64,000 bases of DNA. It comes from a virus. The stretch is from the IMG/VR virus record IMGVR_UViG_3300032240_001667, positions 1-64,000 of that record; one strand, written 5' to 3'. Below, piece after piece: positions 5,724 through 13,476 of the stretch. The stretch's first letter is position 1. Every line of letters begins with the position of its first letter. The position numbers were made by a program, and so were the translations under genes. The notes under the pieces were generated by a model. It did not search any database. It had not been told where the DNA came from and worked only from the letters and a program-made list of their open reading frames with translations.

Positions 5724-6470
5724 ATGGCTGTTTCTAAATCTATGGAGTTCCCTGGTGTTCAAAAATCAAGTTATGCAGCACAAGTTCAACAAAGTCAGCC
5801 AAGTGATTATCAAGAAAACACCTTATCTTTTTTACCCGTACCTGGACCAGTAGGACCACAAGGCCCATCAGGCAGAGACGGTAAAGATGGTAAAGATGGA
5901 GTTCCTGGAGAAAAAGGACCAGAAGGACCACAAGGCAAACAAGGTCCAAAAGGAGAAAAAGGTGCTAATGGAAAAGATGGAGTCAGTTCATTATCTTCTG
6001 CTGGTCAACAAGCAGGTTGGGCATCTTATTTTAATAAATTAAAAAACATAACAAAACTTGGAGTTACTCAAGGTGATGACGGATGGGTTACAGTTTATAT
6101 AAATTCTGAAGGATCTGAAAATGAAACTTACTTACCAAAAGATACAGTAAGTCTATGGAATAACCATGCAAGAATGTTAAATTTTAAAGGCCTTAAAGAA
6201 GGTTCTCAAGTATTTATTACATATAATTTTGAGTTGACAACCTATACAAGTAATACTGAAGTTTGGATAAGAACACTTTTTGCAAATTCAAATAGAGAAA
6301 TCTCTCAATTTGTTGCATCACTTAAATATCAACATACGTATCCAATTTCTGTAACTCAACAGATATTTATTGAAGATCAAAAGATGTGGGGTAATGGGGC
6401 ATATCCACAAATTAGAACAGATTATGACTCTTCTGTTATTATGAATTCTATATATGTCAGCGTGGTATAA
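5724..6470 (+). CDS. collagen-like tail fibre protein, 248 aa
   Basis: Residues about 39-85 are an uninterrupted Gly-X-Y run of some 15 triplets (GPVGPQGPSGRDGKDGKDG and onwards) that should form a collagen-type triple helix. It separates a short Gln/Ser-rich N-terminal attachment part from a C-terminal beta-rich domain ending YVSVV. That C-terminal domain is the likely receptor- or glycan-binding tip. The stop codon lies inside the -10 box of the next gene. The run could be a substrate of the prolyl-hydroxylase-like protein at 11307, though most of its Pro are in the X position. Confidence 0.75.
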   Translation: MAVSKSMEFPGVQKSSYAAQVQQSQPSDYQENTLSFLPVPGPVGPQGPSGRDGKDGKDGVPGEKGPEGPQGKQGPKGEKGANGKDGVSSLSSAGQQAGWASYFNKLKNITKLGVTQGDDGWVTVYINSEGSENETYLPKDTVSLWNNHARMLNFKGLKEGSQVFITYNFELTTYTSNTEVWIRTLFANSNREISQFVASLKYQHTYPISVTQQIFIEDQKMWGNGAYPQIRTDYDSSVIMNSIYVSVV

Positions 6471-7868: not shown

Positions 7869-7993
7869 TTACTGATAACAATGTTGAAGAACAAAAACTG
7901 CGTGAAAGTGGTATTGCTAAATTAATTGCTACTACTGAAATTACAGAGGCAGAATTAAGAGCATTGGGGATAGTATCAAATGACAACAACTAA
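7865..7993 (+). CDS. small helical protein between fibre genes, 42 aa
   Basis: The ATG overlaps the previous stop (ATGA at 7865-7868). The frame runs to TAA at 7993, overlapping the next gene that starts at 7980. It begins MITDNNVEEQKLRESGIAKL and continues with a second helix-like stretch. Overlaps on both sides indicate translational coupling. It may be a small linker or chaperone for the neighbouring fibres. Confidence 0.6.
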   Translation: MITDNNVEEQKLRESGIAKLIATTEITEAELRALGIVSNDNN

Positions 7994-8609
7994 CTCAGAT
8001 GGAAAACTTGCATATGTTTATAATCAAGCAAACGACACTTGGTATGCATTAGGTGCTGCAGTAAATACTGCTGCTTCATATACATGGAGTGCAGATCAAC
8101 ATTTTAATACAGCAGTAACTTTTGATTCAGTAATCAATGCAAAAGCAGGAATTAATAATTTTCAAAATCCAACTGCACGGACAGCAGCAATACCATCACC
8201 AACTAATGGCATCGTTTGTTTTATAAGACAAAAAGATGATGGAACAGTTATTAACCAACTTCAATATTATTCTAATGGTGAATGGAGATTCATCAATGAC
8301 TCAACAACTTTTCTTTTAAAAACAGGAAGTTATACAATAGCAAAAGAAGATGCTGGAAAAACAATTTATGTAACATCTTCTTCAGACTCATTAATAACAA
8401 TTCCAGCAAATAGTACAACACCATTTGTTATTGGACAAAAAATTGAAGTAATTAGAAATGGTTCTGGAAATGTTTCATTTGTTGGTGATGTAGGTGTAAC
8501 CATTAATAGTAAATTTTCTAATAAAAAAATTGCAGCACAATATTCTGGTGCAGTAATCGCAAAAATAGATACCAATACTTGGATTCTTATTGGCGATTTG
8601 ACGGCGTAG
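7980..8609 (+). CDS. tail fibre protein with shared C-terminal domain, 209 aa
   Basis: The last 95 residues (from FLLKTGSYTIAKEDAGKTIY to NTWILIGDLTA) resemble the C-terminus of the large fibre at 19966 (VQKTASYTLSALTERDS to DTWVLYGDLSA). This beta-helix-like tip domain is common in phage fibres. The N-terminal half contains a VYNQANDTWYALGAA motif and a second W-containing repeat. It probably contributes to a receptor-binding complex; sharing of the tip suggests domain shuffling. Confidence 0.6.
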   Translation: MTTTNSDGKLAYVYNQANDTWYALGAAVNTAASYTWSADQHFNTAVTFDSVINAKAGINNFQNPTARTAAIPSPTNGIVCFIRQKDDGTVINQLQYYSNGEWRFINDSTTFLLKTGSYTIAKEDAGKTIYVTSSSDSLITIPANSTTPFVIGQKIEVIRNGSGNVSFVGDVGVTINSKFSNKKIAAQYSGAVIAKIDTNTWILIGDLTA

Positions 8610-8616
8610 GTTTAAA

Positions 8617-10269
8617 ATGTTAAATTTTGGATCTTGGTCTTCAAAAGGAATGGTAAAGGTTCCAAATGTTTTTGGAATGTCAAGATCCGATGCCGTAGCA
8701 TTAATATCAAGTTTGGGTTTAATAGCATCAGATGGTGTTTCAACAAATACAAATATTCCATCTCTTGCAAATAAAATTTCTTCTCAGTTTCCAAATCCAG
8801 ATGATTTAGTTTACTATGAATCTACTGTTAGTTTAATTTATTATAATTATGTTCCAACTCCCACTCCTACTCCAACTACCCCCACCCCTACACCGACTAC
8901 CCCAACGCCAACTACACCAACTACACCAACTCCAACACTAACTCTTCCAACTCCAACTCTTTCAGTATCAGCAATGGGGTATTCTACATACCCACAAATG
9001 TATGCAAATATTACTGTAGGAAACTATAACTACTTAAATACATACTCTTCATCACTAGGAAGTCAAAATCAAGAATTTAAAGAAGAGTGGAACTTAAGTG
9101 GATTAACATTGGGACAATCTTATACAGTAACAATAACTTCTTCAAGAAATGGATATGCTTCTTCAAGTGCAACTATTACATTTGTTGCATCAACTTCACC
9201 AACGCCAACCCCAACGCCAACTCCTTTACCTACTCCATCTAACCCTATTTGGTATTGTTCTGGATTAGATTACATTGATGGTAATTTTCAATCAACAATA
9301 CAATCAGCAACAAATCCATCAACTAGTGTTTGCAATTCTTATATCATAAATTGTTCAACTTCTGGATATCCATCTTATCCTGTTACAATTCCATCATGTA
9401 CTCCAACACCAACTGCTACTCCAACACCAACTGCTACTCCAACACCAACTGCTACTCCAACACCAACTGCTACTCCAACACCTTGTGTTGCAAATTGTCA
9501 ACCAATAGCAGATTCAGCATATTGCCTTAATGTAAATGCACAAGGATATGGTGATGTTTATGAAAGACAAGAAGATGTTAATTATTGTGGAGGAACTTGT
9601 CCAGATCTATATCTAGGAAGATCATTCTGTGGTATTCCAGCAACTCCAACACCAACTGCCACGCCAACTCCTTCTGCAACACCTACACCATCTACGCCAA
9701 CACCTACAGATTCTCCTTCTCCATATAACTTTGCTGTTTATGGACAACCAGGATTTAAGTTTTCTGCTTCAATAAATGCAAATACTGAAATTTTAATGTC
9801 TACAGTTGCTGGTCAACCAGAAACACTAAAACGTGCAATAGATTTAAAGGTTGGAGATAAATTAACAGCATTAGACCTTGGGCCAACACCAGAAAATGGT
9901 GATTGGAGAACTTGGTCTATGGCAAACAGTATGAGTATATTAGATGCCAAAGTTGTTGAAACAGAAATTGTAAGTATAGACATTGTCCCAGAAACAACAT
10001 TTATTTATATTGATGGAGATTTGTTCTCACAAACTCACTGGATTTTAACTAAAAAAGATGGCATAGTTAAATTTACCAAGGCTACAGAAATAGATAATAC
10101 TTATCAAAGATATCACTATAAAGATAATGATTTTGTAGACATTATTCTTGTAGAAACTCTAGAATTACAAATGGATAAAGTTTCAATTAATTGTGAACCA
10201 TATGACAATTTCTTTACACAACAAATGCTTGTTAAGGACTACTACCAAAACAAAAAACCAATAGTTTAA
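8617..10269 (+). CDS. modular Thr-Pro-rich virion protein: PASTA, Fn3-like, Hint-like, 550 aa
   Basis: Residues about 12-78 form a PASTA-like domain (VPNVFGMSRSDAVALISSLG). A Thr-Pro linker follows, then an Fn3-like domain (about 111-190). Next come more TP linkers, including four exact 18-bp repeats encoding TPTPTA, between two Cys-rich segments. The last 180 residues form a Hint-like domain. SINANTEI occupies the usual Cys-initiated motif position, VGDKL follows, SQTHWIL resembles the TxxH block, and CEPYDNFF stands near the end. The same C-terminal domain ends the protein at 21757. PASTA suggests peptidoglycan binding. The TP linkers are plausible glycosylation targets of the cassette just downstream. 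Confidence 0.65.
   Translation: MLNFGSWSSKGMVKVPNVFGMSRSDAVALISSLGLIASDGVSTNTNIPSLANKISSQFPNPDDLVYYESTVSLIYYNYVPTPTPTPTTPTPTPTTPTPTTPTTPTPTLTLPTPTLSVSAMGYSTYPQMYANITVGNYNYLNTYSSSLGSQNQEFKEEWNLSGLTLGQSYTVTITSSRNGYASSSATITFVASTSPTPTPTPTPLPTPSNPIWYCSGLDYIDGNFQSTIQSATNPSTSVCNSYIINCSTSGYPSYPVTIPSCTPTPTATPTPTATPTPTATPTPTATPTPCVANCQPIADSAYCLNVNAQGYGDVYERQEDVNYCGGTCPDLYLGRSFCGIPATPTPTATPTPSATPTPSTPTPTDSPSPYNFAVYGQPGFKFSASINANTEILMSTVAGQPETLKRAIDLKVGDKLTALDLGPTPENGDWRTWSMANSMSILDAKVVETEIVSIDIVPETTFIYIDGDLFSQTHWILTKKDGIVKFTKATEIDNTYQRYHYKDNDFVDIILVETLELQMDKVSINCEPYDNFFTQQMLVKDYYQNKKPIV
9400..9482 (+). repeat. 18-bp tandem repeat encoding TPTPTA, about 4.6 copies
   Basis: ACTCCAACACCAACTGCT is repeated four times exactly, followed by an 11-nt partial copy. 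It keeps frame, so slippage would change linker length without disrupting the gene. Confidence 0.9.
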
Positions 10270-10309: not shown

Positions 10310-10516
10310 ATGTCTAATGATAATCAAGTGAGGCCTTGGGATTTATTAAATCCAAATGTTCCAAGAGCAAGTGAAGACTTAGCAAATGAAAGGTATTCAA
10401 TTTGTAAAACTTGTCCAGAATTAATTAAACTAACATATCAATGCAAAAAATGCGGTTGTTTTATGAAAGCAAAAACAACACTTCAACAAGCAACATGTCC
10501 TTTAGGCAAATGGTAA
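10310..10516 (+). CDS. phage zinc-ribbon protein, 68 aa (paralog of 3684-3896)
   Basis: Key features are CKTCPEL, CKKCGCFMKAK and a terminal ATCPLGKW, the same family as the minus-strand gene at 3684. It is the first gene after the promoter at 10279 and is directly followed by the sulfotransferase, so it may be part of the modification cassette. Biochemical role unknown. Confidence 0.7.
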   Translation: MSNDNQVRPWDLLNPNVPRASEDLANERYSICKTCPELIKLTYQCKKCGCFMKAKTTLQQATCPLGKW

Positions 10517-11314
10517 ATGAAAAATAATAAACAACTTTATTTTTTACATATTCCTAAAACTGGAGGAACTTCGGTTAATGATCAAATAGAAAAATCATTA
10601 ATTGAAAACAATATAAAAATATATCCACCAACAAGTCCACCACATAAAAACAATATTAATGAGTACAACTATATAAAAGGTCATTTTGCAAGGTATCCAA
10701 TTAAAGAAATAAAAGATTTAGATGTTGCTTGTTTATTTAGAAACCCTATAGATAGAGCAATAAGCACCTTTTTATTCATATACGACAAAACTCTATATGC
10801 AAATCCTGAATACAAAAAAATACCAAACTTTGTTGATAAGTTAAGATATTATTTATTTGAAGATGATTATTATGTTAATCATAGAAATATACAATCTAAG
10901 TTTGTTTGCACTGAGCCAACAATAATAAAAATAAACAACGAAAGTAATAGTTGGTATAAAAAAATAAATAATAGTTGGGGCCTTGAAAATAATGAAATAA
11001 CTTTTGATTTAGCAAAAACTTTTGTTGACGAATTTAAAATAATAGGAATTACAGAAAATCATAAAGAATTTATGTATAAAATAAAAAAATGGTTTTTATT
11101 AAACTATAACATTAATATATTTGAAAATTTTAATAATATTGTGTCTAATAAATCTTTTGTTATATATGATAAAATTGAATATACAAGCAATACAATAAAA
11201 AACATGTTAACAGAAAATGATTTACAAAAATTTAAAAATAACAATTTAATTGATTTAGAACTTTATGAATATATATGTCAAAAATTAAAAATGGAGAAAA
11301 TAAAAAATGCGTAA
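10517..11314 (+). CDS. sulfotransferase family protein, 265 aa
   Basis: The N-terminus has FLHIPKTGGTSV (residues 9-20), the PAPS 5-prime-phosphosulfate loop of the sulfotransferase families that modify glycans. KGHF (54-57) and CLFRNPIDRAIS (72-83) match the conserved GH and 3-prime-phosphate RxPxxRxxS motifs. It would transfer sulfate from PAPS to a hydroxyl, probably on a glycan. It starts directly after the zinc-ribbon stop and overlaps the hydroxylase gene by 8 nt, so the three enzymes are probably made together. The acceptor is inferred from context to be a virion glycan. Confidence 0.75.
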   Translation: MKNNKQLYFLHIPKTGGTSVNDQIEKSLIENNIKIYPPTSPPHKNNINEYNYIKGHFARYPIKEIKDLDVACLFRNPIDRAISTFLFIYDKTLYANPEYKKIPNFVDKLRYYLFEDDYYVNHRNIQSKFVCTEPTIIKINNESNSWYKKINNSWGLENNEITFDLAKTFVDEFKIIGITENHKEFMYKIKKWFLLNYNINIFENFNNIVSNKSFVIYDKIEYTSNTIKNMLTENDLQKFKNNNLIDLELYEYICQKLKMEKIKNA

Positions 11315-11891
11315 AATGGAATTAGCACCAGGAATAGTGGTTTATTCTGATGTACTTAGTAATTCAGAAGATCTTATTAATGACATTGAAGAAGGAATTG
11401 TTTCTGCACAATTAAAATGGTATTCAGCAGGAGTAAATGGTGGAGAAAATAAACAAATAAGAGATACAGACTCTATTGCAATTCCTTATATTGACCATAT
11501 TGATGAAAATTTTTTAGACCTTAAAGATACATTTAAAAAAACACTGTCTAATATTTTTTATTCAGAAATAGGACCTTTAGAAAAAGATTACATGATGTTT
11601 TATGGAGTTAATGCTTTAGAGCATGACTCCTATGAAATTTTAAGATATGGAAAAGGTCAACATTTTCTAAATCATATAGATGATGGCCCCATTTACCATA
11701 GAAGAATTTCTACAGTTTATTATTTAAATGATAATTACGAAGGTGGAGAAATTAATTTTCCAAGATTTAATATTTTTTATAAACCAAAAGCAAATGAGTT
11801 GCTTATATTTCCATCAACCTATGTATATCTACACTCAGTTTCTGAAGTGACAAGTGGAATAAGATATGCTGTTGTAAGTTGGATTAAATAA
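11307..11891 (+). CDS. 2-oxoglutarate/Fe(II) dioxygenase, prolyl-hydroxylase-like, 194 aa
   Basis: The C-terminal half has the complete facial triad of the P4H type. HID (H123, D125) lies in GQHFLNHIDDG, the distal His is in VYLHSVSEV (H176) and the 2OG-binding Arg is in SGIRYAVVSW (R186). YYLNDNYEGGEINFPRF is the typical strand pair between them. It would hydroxylate a peptide side chain, using 2OG, O2 and Fe(II). Its gene overlaps the sulfotransferase on one side and the glycosyltransferase by one base on the other. A GlcNAc-transferase partner argues for prolyl hydroxylation, but the substrate is not shown by sequence. Confidence 0.8.
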   Translation: MRKMELAPGIVVYSDVLSNSEDLINDIEEGIVSAQLKWYSAGVNGGENKQIRDTDSIAIPYIDHIDENFLDLKDTFKKTLSNIFYSEIGPLEKDYMMFYGVNALEHDSYEILRYGKGQHFLNHIDDGPIYHRRISTVYYLNDNYEGGEINFPRFNIFYKPKANELLIFPSTYVYLHSVSEVTSGIRYAVVSWIK

Positions 11892-12814
11892 TGGAAAAAA
11901 TATTTATTAATATTCCATGTTATCAAGATCCAGAAATTTGGGAAACAATTTCTAGTTTTTTAAATAATGCAGAACATCCAGAAAGAGTTTATTTTGGAAT
12001 AACAAATCAAACAAACAATTTTAAACTACATGAAGAAGTTTTAGAACGCTTTCCAAATGTTCAGATGCATCTTTTAGTTCCTGGAAGTTTGGCAGGTTGT
12101 CAACCAGCAAGACTCAAATCTCATGAGTTTTATAAAGAAGAAGAATATTATTTAAATATGGACTCCCACATGAGAGCAATTAAAAAATGGGATACTTTAA
12201 TTATAAAAGAATTAAATGACATTGATAAAGAATATGGTCCATCAGTTTTAACTGGTTATGTTGCAGCATACAATAAAGATAGTGAAGGAAATGATGTCGT
12301 AGAGAATGTAGACTATACAACAGTTTTTCATATGAATGAAAAAAATATAGAGCATTTTAAAAAAAATAATATTCCACAATTTATCTCGTATACTCATAAA
12401 ACAGACAAACCAATACCATCTCCATATATTTCTGGTCATTTTTTCTTTACAACAGGACAAGCATTAAAAGATGCACCATTTGTTAAAGATATATTATTTA
12501 CTGAAGAAGAAATTTTTATGGCTGTAAGATTTTTTACTGCTGGCTACAATTTATTTCAACCAACAAAAACTTATGTTTATCATAGATATGGAAGAAATGG
12601 AAGAAATTTGTTTTGGGAAGATTTTCCAGAAAATTGGTATAAAAAAAATGAAGAATCAAAAAATTTTGTAAATTATGTTTTTTTAAATGAAATAATAAAT
12701 AAAGAAAATGGACTGTTAAATAAAAGAACATTAACTGAATTTGAAGAATACTCTGGCATAAACTTTAGAAAAAATACATTATCAGAAGATGTTATTAAAG
12801 GTAAAATAAAATAA
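11891..12814 (+). CDS. GlcNAc-type glycosyltransferase (Skp1 GnT1-like family), 307 aa
   Basis: The opening FINIPCYQDPEIWETISSFL and FGITNQ (36-40), the motif GSLAGCQPAR (about 65-74) and NMDSHMRAIKKWD (89-101) match the family that includes the Dictyostelium Skp1 hydroxyproline GlcNAc transferase; DSH is the metal-binding DxD-like motif. SGHFFFTTGQA and FTEEEIFMAVRFFTAGY continue the pattern. It should use UDP-GlcNAc. Fusion of its start to the dioxygenase stop (TAATG) suggests that the two act in sequence: hydroxylate, then glycosylate. It ends just before a terminator. Confidence 0.75.
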   Translation: MEKIFINIPCYQDPEIWETISSFLNNAEHPERVYFGITNQTNNFKLHEEVLERFPNVQMHLLVPGSLAGCQPARLKSHEFYKEEEYYLNMDSHMRAIKKWDTLIIKELNDIDKEYGPSVLTGYVAAYNKDSEGNDVVENVDYTTVFHMNEKNIEHFKKNNIPQFISYTHKTDKPIPSPYISGHFFFTTGQALKDAPFVKDILFTEEEIFMAVRFFTAGYNLFQPTKTYVYHRYGRNGRNLFWEDFPENWYKKNEESKNFVNYVFLNEIINKENGLLNKRTLTEFEEYSGINFRKNTLSEDVIKGKIK

Positions 12815-12855: not shown

Positions 12856-13428
12856 TTATTTAGGAAATTTTTTCATCCATTTTTTTGTTTCGGCAGTTAA
12901 TCCATGCCAAGAAGACCAGTTTTTACCACCATCACTCATATAGTACGCTATTTGTGAATTTAATACGGGGTTTAAAAGATCAGCATTAAAATTAAGTCCA
13001 AAGAACTTTCTTCTGTCTGGACCTAAATCTCTAATCATATTAATTTGAAATAGTCCAAAAGATGAATCTCCTGTTTTGCCATTACCATTAAATGCCAATG
13101 GATTACCATGAGTTTCTTTTTTTGCTATAGCCCAAGCCTGAACTAAATGTGTTCCACTAAAGCCAACAGCCTTAAGAAGTTCTTTTAATTGTATATCTGT
13201 TAATTTTGTTGAATTCTGATACTTTAATAAAGTACCAGCATTTTTTGTTAAATGTGCAATATTTTTTGGTCTAGAAACCAAAAAAACCGCCTTAGCGGTT
13301 GTTGTAGCAGAAACACTAGTAATACTAAGATTATTTTCACTAGATAAAGCATTTGCTCTATTCATAATCATAGTAGCACCAAGTACAAATGCGAGTACCC
13401 CTATTAGAAACTTTTGATCATTTTTCAT
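12856..13428 (-). CDS. secreted lysozyme/transglycosylase-like muralytic enzyme, 190 aa
   Basis: I chose the ATG at 13428 because AAGGAGG stands 5 nt upstream; a longer frame exists but lacks a site. The N-terminus (MKNDQKFLIGVLAFVLGATM) is a signal peptide or anchor, with ANA near residue 27 as a possible cleavage site. The core AIAKKETHGNPLAFN places a catalytic Glu at 105. SSFGLFQIN (122-130) is the signature of SLT/lysozyme-fold enzymes. It would cleave peptidoglycan for lysis or entry. It is alone on the minus strand within late genes and has its own promoter. Confidence 0.75.
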   Translation of the reverse strand: MKNDQKFLIGVLAFVLGATMIMNRANALSSENNLSITSVSATTTAKAVFLVSRPKNIAHLTKNAGTLLKYQNSTKLTDIQLKELLKAVGFSGTHLVQAWAIAKKETHGNPLAFNGNGKTGDSSFGLFQINMIRDLGPDRRKFFGLNFNADLLNPVLNSQIAYYMSDGGKNWSSWHGLTAETKKWMKKFPK

Positions 13429-13476
13429 AGTTTCCTCCTTAGAAAACAATAACACCCTGGTAGGTGTCTACTGACA

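Follow-up and report, generated by a model that had tools for sequence, protein, structure and literature searches.

A predicted prolyl hydroxylase and a PF11397 glycosyltransferase beside repeat-rich tail linkers in a group of environmental phages

Genes of the tail-associated cassette

We analysed a gene cassette (10310-12814) in the IMG/VR virus record IMGVR_UViG_3300032240_001667. The window, which is the whole stretch of DNA under analysis, comprises positions 1 to 64,000 (64 kb) of this 79,103-base viral record. The cassette stands directly 3' of the gene for a Thr-Pro-rich linker protein, inside the tail-gene region, and its predicted products are a DUF6171 protein, a sulfotransferase-like protein, a 2-oxoglutarate (2OG)-Fe(II) dioxygenase and a glycosyltransferase (Table 1). 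The four open reading frames (ORFs) abut at 10516/10517 and then overlap by 8 and 1 bases. The ORF coordinates agree with a first-pass annotation of the stretch, which had described an overlapping cassette directly after a Thr-Pro linker protein and had omitted DUF6171 as its first gene.

The dioxygenase matched the profiles PF13640 and phrog_61 (E 1.8e-31 for the latter). In an alignment of 34 sequences H123, D125 and H176 were invariant and R186 was present in at least 90%, which corresponds to the HxD...H iron triad and the distal 2OG-binding Arg of prolyl 4-hydroxylase (P4H) and PHD enzymes. The nearest solved structures in a PDB sequence search were P4Hs (B. anthracis P4H, E 5e-5). The AlphaFold2 model (predicted local distance difference test, pLDDT, 93.3) was closest to the Dictyostelium PHD (6t8m, E 1.5e-10), Chlamydomonas P4H-1 (E 2.5e-10) and its (Ser-Pro)5 complex (E 6.5e-10), the Chlamydomonas matches being 2jig/3gze. 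These were followed by PHD2, a Pseudomonas P4H and the chlorella-virus P4H (viral collagen prolyl hydroxylase, vCPH, of PBCV-1; 5c5t). The PKHD-type structure 3dkq ranked below the prolyl hydroxylases, and NCBIfam gave sub-threshold PKHD/Fe2+-dioxygenase matches. Judged by sequence and predicted fold the enzyme is of the protein-prolyl-hydroxylase type, and the intact HxD...H...R triad of this type, as annotated in the first pass, is borne out by the alignment and, as regards its DSBH domain, by PF13640. The labels 'ferrochelatase' and 'DNA endonuclease' on matching PHROG profiles were rejected as misannotations because the alignments of these profiles fall within the oxygenase part of the sequence. 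Only two distant relatives were found in bacterial genomes, neither with a long Pro-repeat neighbour.

The glycosyltransferase scored 172.5 bits against PF11397 ('GlcNAc'), for which the cutoff is 21, and its assignment to the Skp1 GnT1 family is upheld. D91 and H93 of its DxH motif (D91-S-H93) were invariant in 26 relatives, and the first 25 PDB fold matches of its AlphaFold2 model (pLDDT 95) were polypeptide GalNAc-transferases (ppGalNAc-Ts). With a predicted GT-A fold and a DxH metal motif the protein resembles family GT27. Membership of GT27 was not found at the sequence level, PF11397 being the best Pfam family and identity to GT27 chains in structure alignments being about 13-16%. A PDB sequence search returned nothing useful. 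PF11397-like relatives with 24-26% identity were also seen in the jumbo phages XacN1 (Xanthomonas), CM1 and RAS14 (Stenotrophomonas). Structure prediction, which had been proposed as a check with the first-pass annotation, led to prolyl hydroxylase folds for the dioxygenase and to ppGalNAc-T folds for the glycosyltransferase.

By sequence, the sulfotransferase-like protein is the weakest identification of the three enzymes. It contains HIPKTGGTS and RNPIDRAIS, which we take to be motifs for binding 3'-phosphoadenosine-5'-phosphosulfate (PAPS), and its residues 1-95 match phrog_3347 ('Galactose-3-O-sulfotransferase'). The window copy had no Pfam match, and NCBIfam and PDB searches gave no useful match. 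A homologue in L071 (L numbers denote loci of the survey described below) fell just under the cutoff of PF03567 (Sulfotransfer_2, E 5.4e-4). What stands of the proposed PAPS sulfotransferase are thus the motifs and the partial family matches. Outside the window, homologues were seen in L014 and L071 (42-45% identical) and, in partial form, in L060. We regard the gene as optional because it is this rare (the window and three loci); the dioxygenase-anchored loci yielded it three times near the site, and it was rejected as a core component. Sulfation, which had been placed in the core pathway, is accordingly withdrawn from it.

The linker protein carries four Thr-Pro linker blocks (TPTPTPTT..., TATPTP...; T30=17, P30=12), and apart from collagen no other Pro-repeat protein is encoded by the 79-kb record. 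Its N-terminus is PASTA-like (PF03793, under cutoff), it matches the virion structural protein profile phrog_38766, and its C-terminus is similar to the Hint/intein-like ends seen in linker proteins of relatives. Such ends were observed in several phages (window 9760-10269, L056 6540-7268, L044 5190-5678). In the relatives they gave sub-threshold matches to PF13403 (E 2.3e-5) and PF14890, and the window domain has a similar pattern from which the usual N-terminal Cys is seemingly absent. These ends could bring about self-processing of the virion protein. Relatives often fuse the linker to a homologue of the upstream tail protein (L003, L005, L006, L012, L018, L020).

The order DUF6171-dioxygenase was seen again in most of about 80 loci, which is far above chance. 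Nearly every related dioxygenase locus contains DUF6171, as do some loci that lack an oxygenase; the protein is perhaps an adaptor. The lytic-transglycosylase-like gene at the 3' border, whose order is conserved across related loci, is outside the modification kit.

Table 1. Features of the cassette and its surroundings in the window
Position	Strand	Feature	Best match
5724-6470		Collagen-like fibre protein, 4 kb upstream of the cassette	
7980..8609	+	Tail protein; N-terminal part of the Pro-linker polypeptide in many relatives	phrog_8780 minor tail protein, E 7.6e-19
8617..10269	+	Tail-associated Thr-Pro linker protein, 550 aa, presumed substrate	PASTA, E 1.9e-4; phrog_38766, E 4.7e-4
10310..10516	+	DUF6171, small Cys-rich protein, 68 aa, conserved locus marker	PF19668, E 1.7e-7
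10517..11314	+	Sulfotransferase-like protein, 265 aa, optional component	phrog_3347, E 6.3e-8
11307..11891	+	2OG-Fe(II) dioxygenase, predicted P4H type, 194 aa	PF13640, E 4.5e-17
11891..12814	+	Predicted GT-A glycosyltransferase, PF11397 (Skp1 GnT1 family), 307 aa	PF11397, E 2.2e-50
12856..13455	-	Lytic-transglycosylase-like gene, 3' border of the variable cassette in relatives	PF18896, E 4e-14

Oxygenases and Pro repeats in related loci

About 240 related viral loci were surveyed, the contigs originating from IMG/VR environmental samples. For a dioxygenase-anchored set, relatives of the enzyme were fetched from viral contigs, and 66 of the resulting loci had at least 1.5 kb of upstream sequence. 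At 65 of these 66 a non-collagen Pro-repeat ORF ended within 3 kb upstream of the dioxygenase, and Pro tracts lay 0-3 kb upstream of the dioxygenase in 244 of 245 cases. When the dioxygenases were grouped with a threshold of 90% identity, the upstream Pro-repeat pattern held for 52 of the 56 clusters. This gene-neighbourhood survey had been named beforehand as a check, and the partner of the dioxygenase proved to be consistently Pro-rich. The repeat units at the dioxygenase loci included (TP)n, (VTP)n, (AVTP)n, (APTPV)n, (AP)n, (PAPI)n and PPFF, and their carriers were PASTA-type proteins, fused tail proteins or proteins of more than 1000 aa. Since the oxygenase is retained next to differing repeat units in differing carrier proteins, its link is to the repeat.

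Control loci were anchored on two other genes, irrespective of the dioxygenase, and 85 of them span the site. An oxygenase or oxygenase-like gene was found within 1.5 kb downstream in all 18 control loci with T/A/V/S-Pro tracts, the matches in L156 and L221 being weaker (104 and 44 bits, respectively), and 65 of the 67 loci without tracts had neither main oxygenase family. As a control for common descent, independent pairs were taken from a tree of the two flanking proteins: among seven pairs, tract and oxygenase changed in the same direction in 6.3 and in opposite directions in 0 (median p 0.031).

A 2x2 table restricted to the main dioxygenase left seven Pro-repeat loci lacking it, and each of them had another oxygenase-like gene in its place. 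In five tract-positive loci the place was occupied by a second family (about 190 aa, HxD...H pattern), which in 43 other loci comes after the main dioxygenase. The second family showed weak matches to PF13532 (E 0.003-0.01) and PHROG overlap; a profile comparison with the first family gave no significant match and a PDB sequence search nothing useful. Its pattern and these matches make membership of the 2OG class likely. The pattern reads HxDDN...H in many loci (e.g., L016 8588-9172 and L106 5430-6011), where PHROG applies the label 'ferrochelatase' (phrog_2954/3531), which is probably wrong. Segments of PHROG 3531 match both oxygenase families, suggesting natural fusions. A weak match to the second family (49.5 bits; L257 1604-2311, record about 65,100-65,810) was also found in the window phage itself, outside the window and far from the tail locus.

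The genes between the dioxygenase and the 3' border form a swappable set of glycosylation genes, in which PF11397 was found in 38 loci, a sugar epimerase in 33 and GT61 in 28, next to weak GT8-like and O-FucT-like matches. In L087 (2036-3682) GT61 is fused to a cupin domain, and 27 other loci hold GT61.

Two further observations concern the repeats. In the otherwise near-identical phages L003, L004, L005 and L006 the APTP unit occurs 10, 8, 8 and 12 times, which suggests rapid variation in linker length (or an assembly error). A second repeat class, PFFPPFFPP, was found at a distance of 5-10 kb in further tail proteins (L163 14883-15839, L139 15515-16324, L145 15331-16653, L112 14698-15543), in most cases with paralogous dioxygenases (about 110 bits) after it; an oxygenase lay within 4 kb of 41 of 54 PFF tracts.

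Possible decoration of the tail linker

We consider it probable that a phage prolyl hydroxylase and an O-glycosyltransferase decorate the neighbouring tail linker, as the best explanation of the locus. The dioxygenase would hydroxylate Pro in the linker using Fe(II), O2 and 2OG, and the glycosyltransferase would transfer a HexNAc-type sugar onto the same linkers, at Thr, at the new hydroxyproline or at both. In the window phage that glycan may be capped by the sulfotransferase-like protein. Modified in this way, the linker would form an extended and stiff glycosylated spacer that separates receptor-binding or otherwise exposed domains from the tail, comparable to a plant arabinogalactan-protein or mucin stalk. 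The gene content, the catalytic motifs, the predicted folds and the joint occurrence of oxygenase and Pro repeats in independent lineages are observations; we infer the linker as substrate, and likewise the position of the hydroxyl, the sugar, the acceptor residue, the sulfation and the benefit, which could lie in reach, stiffness, protease resistance or masking.

How the two modifications might relate to each other can be judged from linker composition. Pro and Thr density of the linker were scored in 47 control loci. Presence of an oxygenase was associated with linker Pro (p 0.002) and not with linker Thr (p 0.88), whereas PF11397 was associated most strongly with linker Thr (p 9e-6). In tree-controlled pairs scored on the linker, Thr and the glycosyltransferase changed in the same direction in 3.7 and in opposite directions in 0.1, while Pro and the glycosyltransferase were unrelated (2.8 versus 1.8) and the glycosyltransferase and the oxygenase varied independently (1.6 versus 1.7). 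Mucin-like linkers of the form (TTTTAAP)n in L103 (2514-3677) and (TTG)n in L204 (4044-6119) stand beside PF11397 with no oxygenase detected. Nearly Thr-free linkers in L041, L082, L086 and L206 are accompanied by two oxygenases and no PF11397, an absence that is not significant alone against a background of 26/79 elsewhere.

Since PF11397 is tied more closely to Thr than to Pro and can be present in loci lacking an oxygenase, Pro hydroxylation and direct Thr O-glycosylation acting in parallel and independently on one linker fit these data at least as well as a strict hydroxyproline-O-GlcNAc pathway. This parallel form, to which we would give almost an even chance, draws on the double dissociation, on the agreement of the tree directions and on the resemblance of the predicted fold to mucin-type GalNAc-transferases. 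Set against it are the few pairs behind each single tree-controlled test (median p 0.125), the correlation of PF11397 with Pro as well before tree control (p 0.0017), and the other cassette glycosyltransferases (GT61, GT8-like, O-FucT-like), which could still use hydroxyproline. In the strict sequence, hydroxyproline would be formed first and PF11397 would add GlcNAc only there, as on Skp1 in Dictyostelium. Membership of PF11397 in the Skp1 GnT1 family, the Dictyostelium PHD as best fold match of the dioxygenase, and the adjacency of the two genes, both in the window and in those close relatives that have the pair, speak for this order. We nevertheless regard it as rather unlikely, given the PF11397 genes of L103 and L204 without an oxygenase, the independence of the two genes on the tree, the four almost Thr-free loci and a glycosyltransferase fold closest to the Thr/Ser-acting ppGalNAc-Ts. 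The obligatory order of the first-pass annotation, hydroxyproline and then GlcNAc, is therefore not supported; linker composition and tree results favour two decorations of one linker, with glycosylation of hydroxyproline possible and not required.

Several points weigh against a hydroxylase that acts on Pro-repeat linkers. The Fisher value of 2.8e-13 for the 16/2/2/65 table, in which the two weak matches were counted as lacking an oxygenase, is too small and overstates independence because the loci are related and some contigs were fetched twice. When only the DUF6171-adjacent linker was scored, a stricter test, Pro and oxygenase agreed in 5.2 pairs and disagreed in 0.5 (median p 0.125), which is weaker and same-signed. 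In L178 and L181 the dioxygenase is divergent (39% identity) and the protein next to it is poor in Pro, and in L058 the Pro tract is elsewhere, 7 kb away. Cyanophage relatives (24-33% identity), located among tail genes or near them, lack a Pro-repeat neighbour, which implies that the fold alone does not indicate a Pro-linker substrate. Template modelling scores (TM-scores) of the dioxygenase to P4Hs are moderate (0.53-0.74), and the identity of the sulfotransferase rests on partial matches.

The cyanophage genes would also suit enzymes that modify a polysaccharide or receptor on the host surface, for superinfection exclusion or serotype conversion, with the site in the tail genes being a hot spot for variable genes. 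In other systems, phages do use glycosyltransferases to alter the host surface (PMC12619734), and the cassette is highly variable. A hot spot, however, does not predict that oxygenase and Pro, and glycosyltransferase and Thr, track each other in independent lineages, and the predicted folds belong to protein-modifying enzymes; we consider this explanation improbable. Hydroxylation of the collagen-like fibre, as in collagen prolyl hydroxylation, is suggested by the position of its gene and by PBCV-1 vCPH among the fold matches, and is highly improbable and was rejected as the partnership, because a collagen-like gene is present in 60 of the 67 oxygenase-negative control loci, was not seen in 6 of the 18 oxygenase-positive ones and showed no association with the oxygenase in independent pairs. 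Of the two partners first suggested for the hydroxylase, the Pro-repeat linkers are thus retained on comparative genomics and the fibre is not. The fibre protein itself is kept in most relatives irrespective of the oxygenase.

Returning to linker decoration, in about 100 relatives the hydroxylase follows Pro repeats and the glycosyltransferase Thr repeats, and the tail linkers are probably decorated much as in plant hydroxyproline-rich cell-wall proteins. By its DNA polymerase (about 54% identical) and its capsid protease (about 51%), the window phage (GC 34%) is closest to Streptomyces phages such as BillNye and Annadreamy, which we take to be BE-cluster phages. The host is presumably a freshwater actinobacterium. 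With less confidence, we lean towards a broader proposal, namely that a large phage group related to the Streptomyces BE-cluster builds hydroxyproline- and Thr-glycosylated tail stalks as phage equivalents of plant arabinogalactan-proteins and mucins, and that repeats and enzymes (Pro with oxygenase, Thr with PF11397; GT61, epimerase and an occasional sulfotransferase) co-evolve as exchangeable pairs.

Comparison with known systems

2OG oxygenases are common and largely unexplained genes of aquatic phages. They were present in 14 of 16 cyanophage genomes in a 2010 survey (PMC3037559), and prolyl-hydroxylase-like (EGLN3-like) folds are described as widespread in phages of marine bacteria in an account whose passages on these folds name no substrate (PMC12774648). 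The cyanophage 2OG-Fe(II) oxygenases (phrog_61, phrog_3531) belong to the same superfamily as the window enzyme, with the above identity extending over most of the protein, and lie mostly among or near tail genes; they differ in that a Pro-repeat neighbour was not found. PBCV-1 vCPH is likewise a virus-encoded P4H, with a solved structure, but it comes from an algal virus and is named for collagen, which in the clade of the window phage is not the correlated partner. In the open-access literature, where absence is no proof, no description was found of a phage P4H associated with Pro-repeat linkers of the tail. The present locus supplies a concrete candidate substrate, Pro-repeat tail linkers, for one large clade, and its interest is that the long-standing question of the substrate of 2OG oxygenases becomes directly testable. 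If the proposal is true, this locus would provide, within the open-access literature searched, the first example of a phage virion protein with hydroxyproline. It would also add tail stalks to the glycosylated parts of phage virions and offer small enzymes for hydroxyproline-rich glycopeptides made in bacteria.

Mycobacteriophage glycosylation is similar to the proposed system in that glycans are placed on the phage's own virion proteins, but neither a prolyl hydroxylase nor a Pro-repeat partner is known to us there. As summarized in a later paper, these glycans are on capsid and tail-tube proteins (Freeman 2023, cited in PMC12619734). They are placed at the C-termini of the subunits. Mucin-type O-glycosylation (GT27) shares with the phage system the predicted glycosyltransferase fold, the DxH motif, presumed Thr/Pro-rich acceptor stretches and an apparent dependence on Thr, and differs in that the phage enzyme has 307 aa, low identity and PF11397 as its Pfam family.

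The Skp1 pathway of Dictyostelium and Toxoplasma (PhyA, then GnT1) uses the same two enzyme classes. In Dictyostelium, Skp1 is modified at a single Pro, Pro143 (PMC9485057), whereas the presumed phage substrate is a repetitive virion linker; moreover, the phage hydroxylase and glycosyltransferase do not appear to be obligatorily coupled, and nothing points to a part in signalling or O2 sensing. The hydroxyproline-rich glycoproteins (HRGPs) of plants and algae, including arabinogalactan-proteins (AGPs), share dipeptides with the phage linkers, and the fold matches of the phage dioxygenase have Chlamydomonas P4H-1 (3gze) near the top. Repeats of the AP/SP/TP/VP kind, on which P4H acts in plant HRGPs and AGPs, are associated with a P4H-type gene in the phages. 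In contrast to the plant proteins, the phage linker would be part of a virion, with no secretion route and with other glycosyltransferases, and its glycan and hydroxylation are proposals. Type II arabinogalactan on hydroxyproline, a secretion signal and a glycosylphosphatidylinositol (GPI) anchor are traits of plant HRGPs and AGPs (PMC9854139) that are specific to eukaryotes and are not claimed for the phage. Dictyostelium offers the nearest structural analogy, but the chemistry of the repeats looks more like that of plant AGP backbones.

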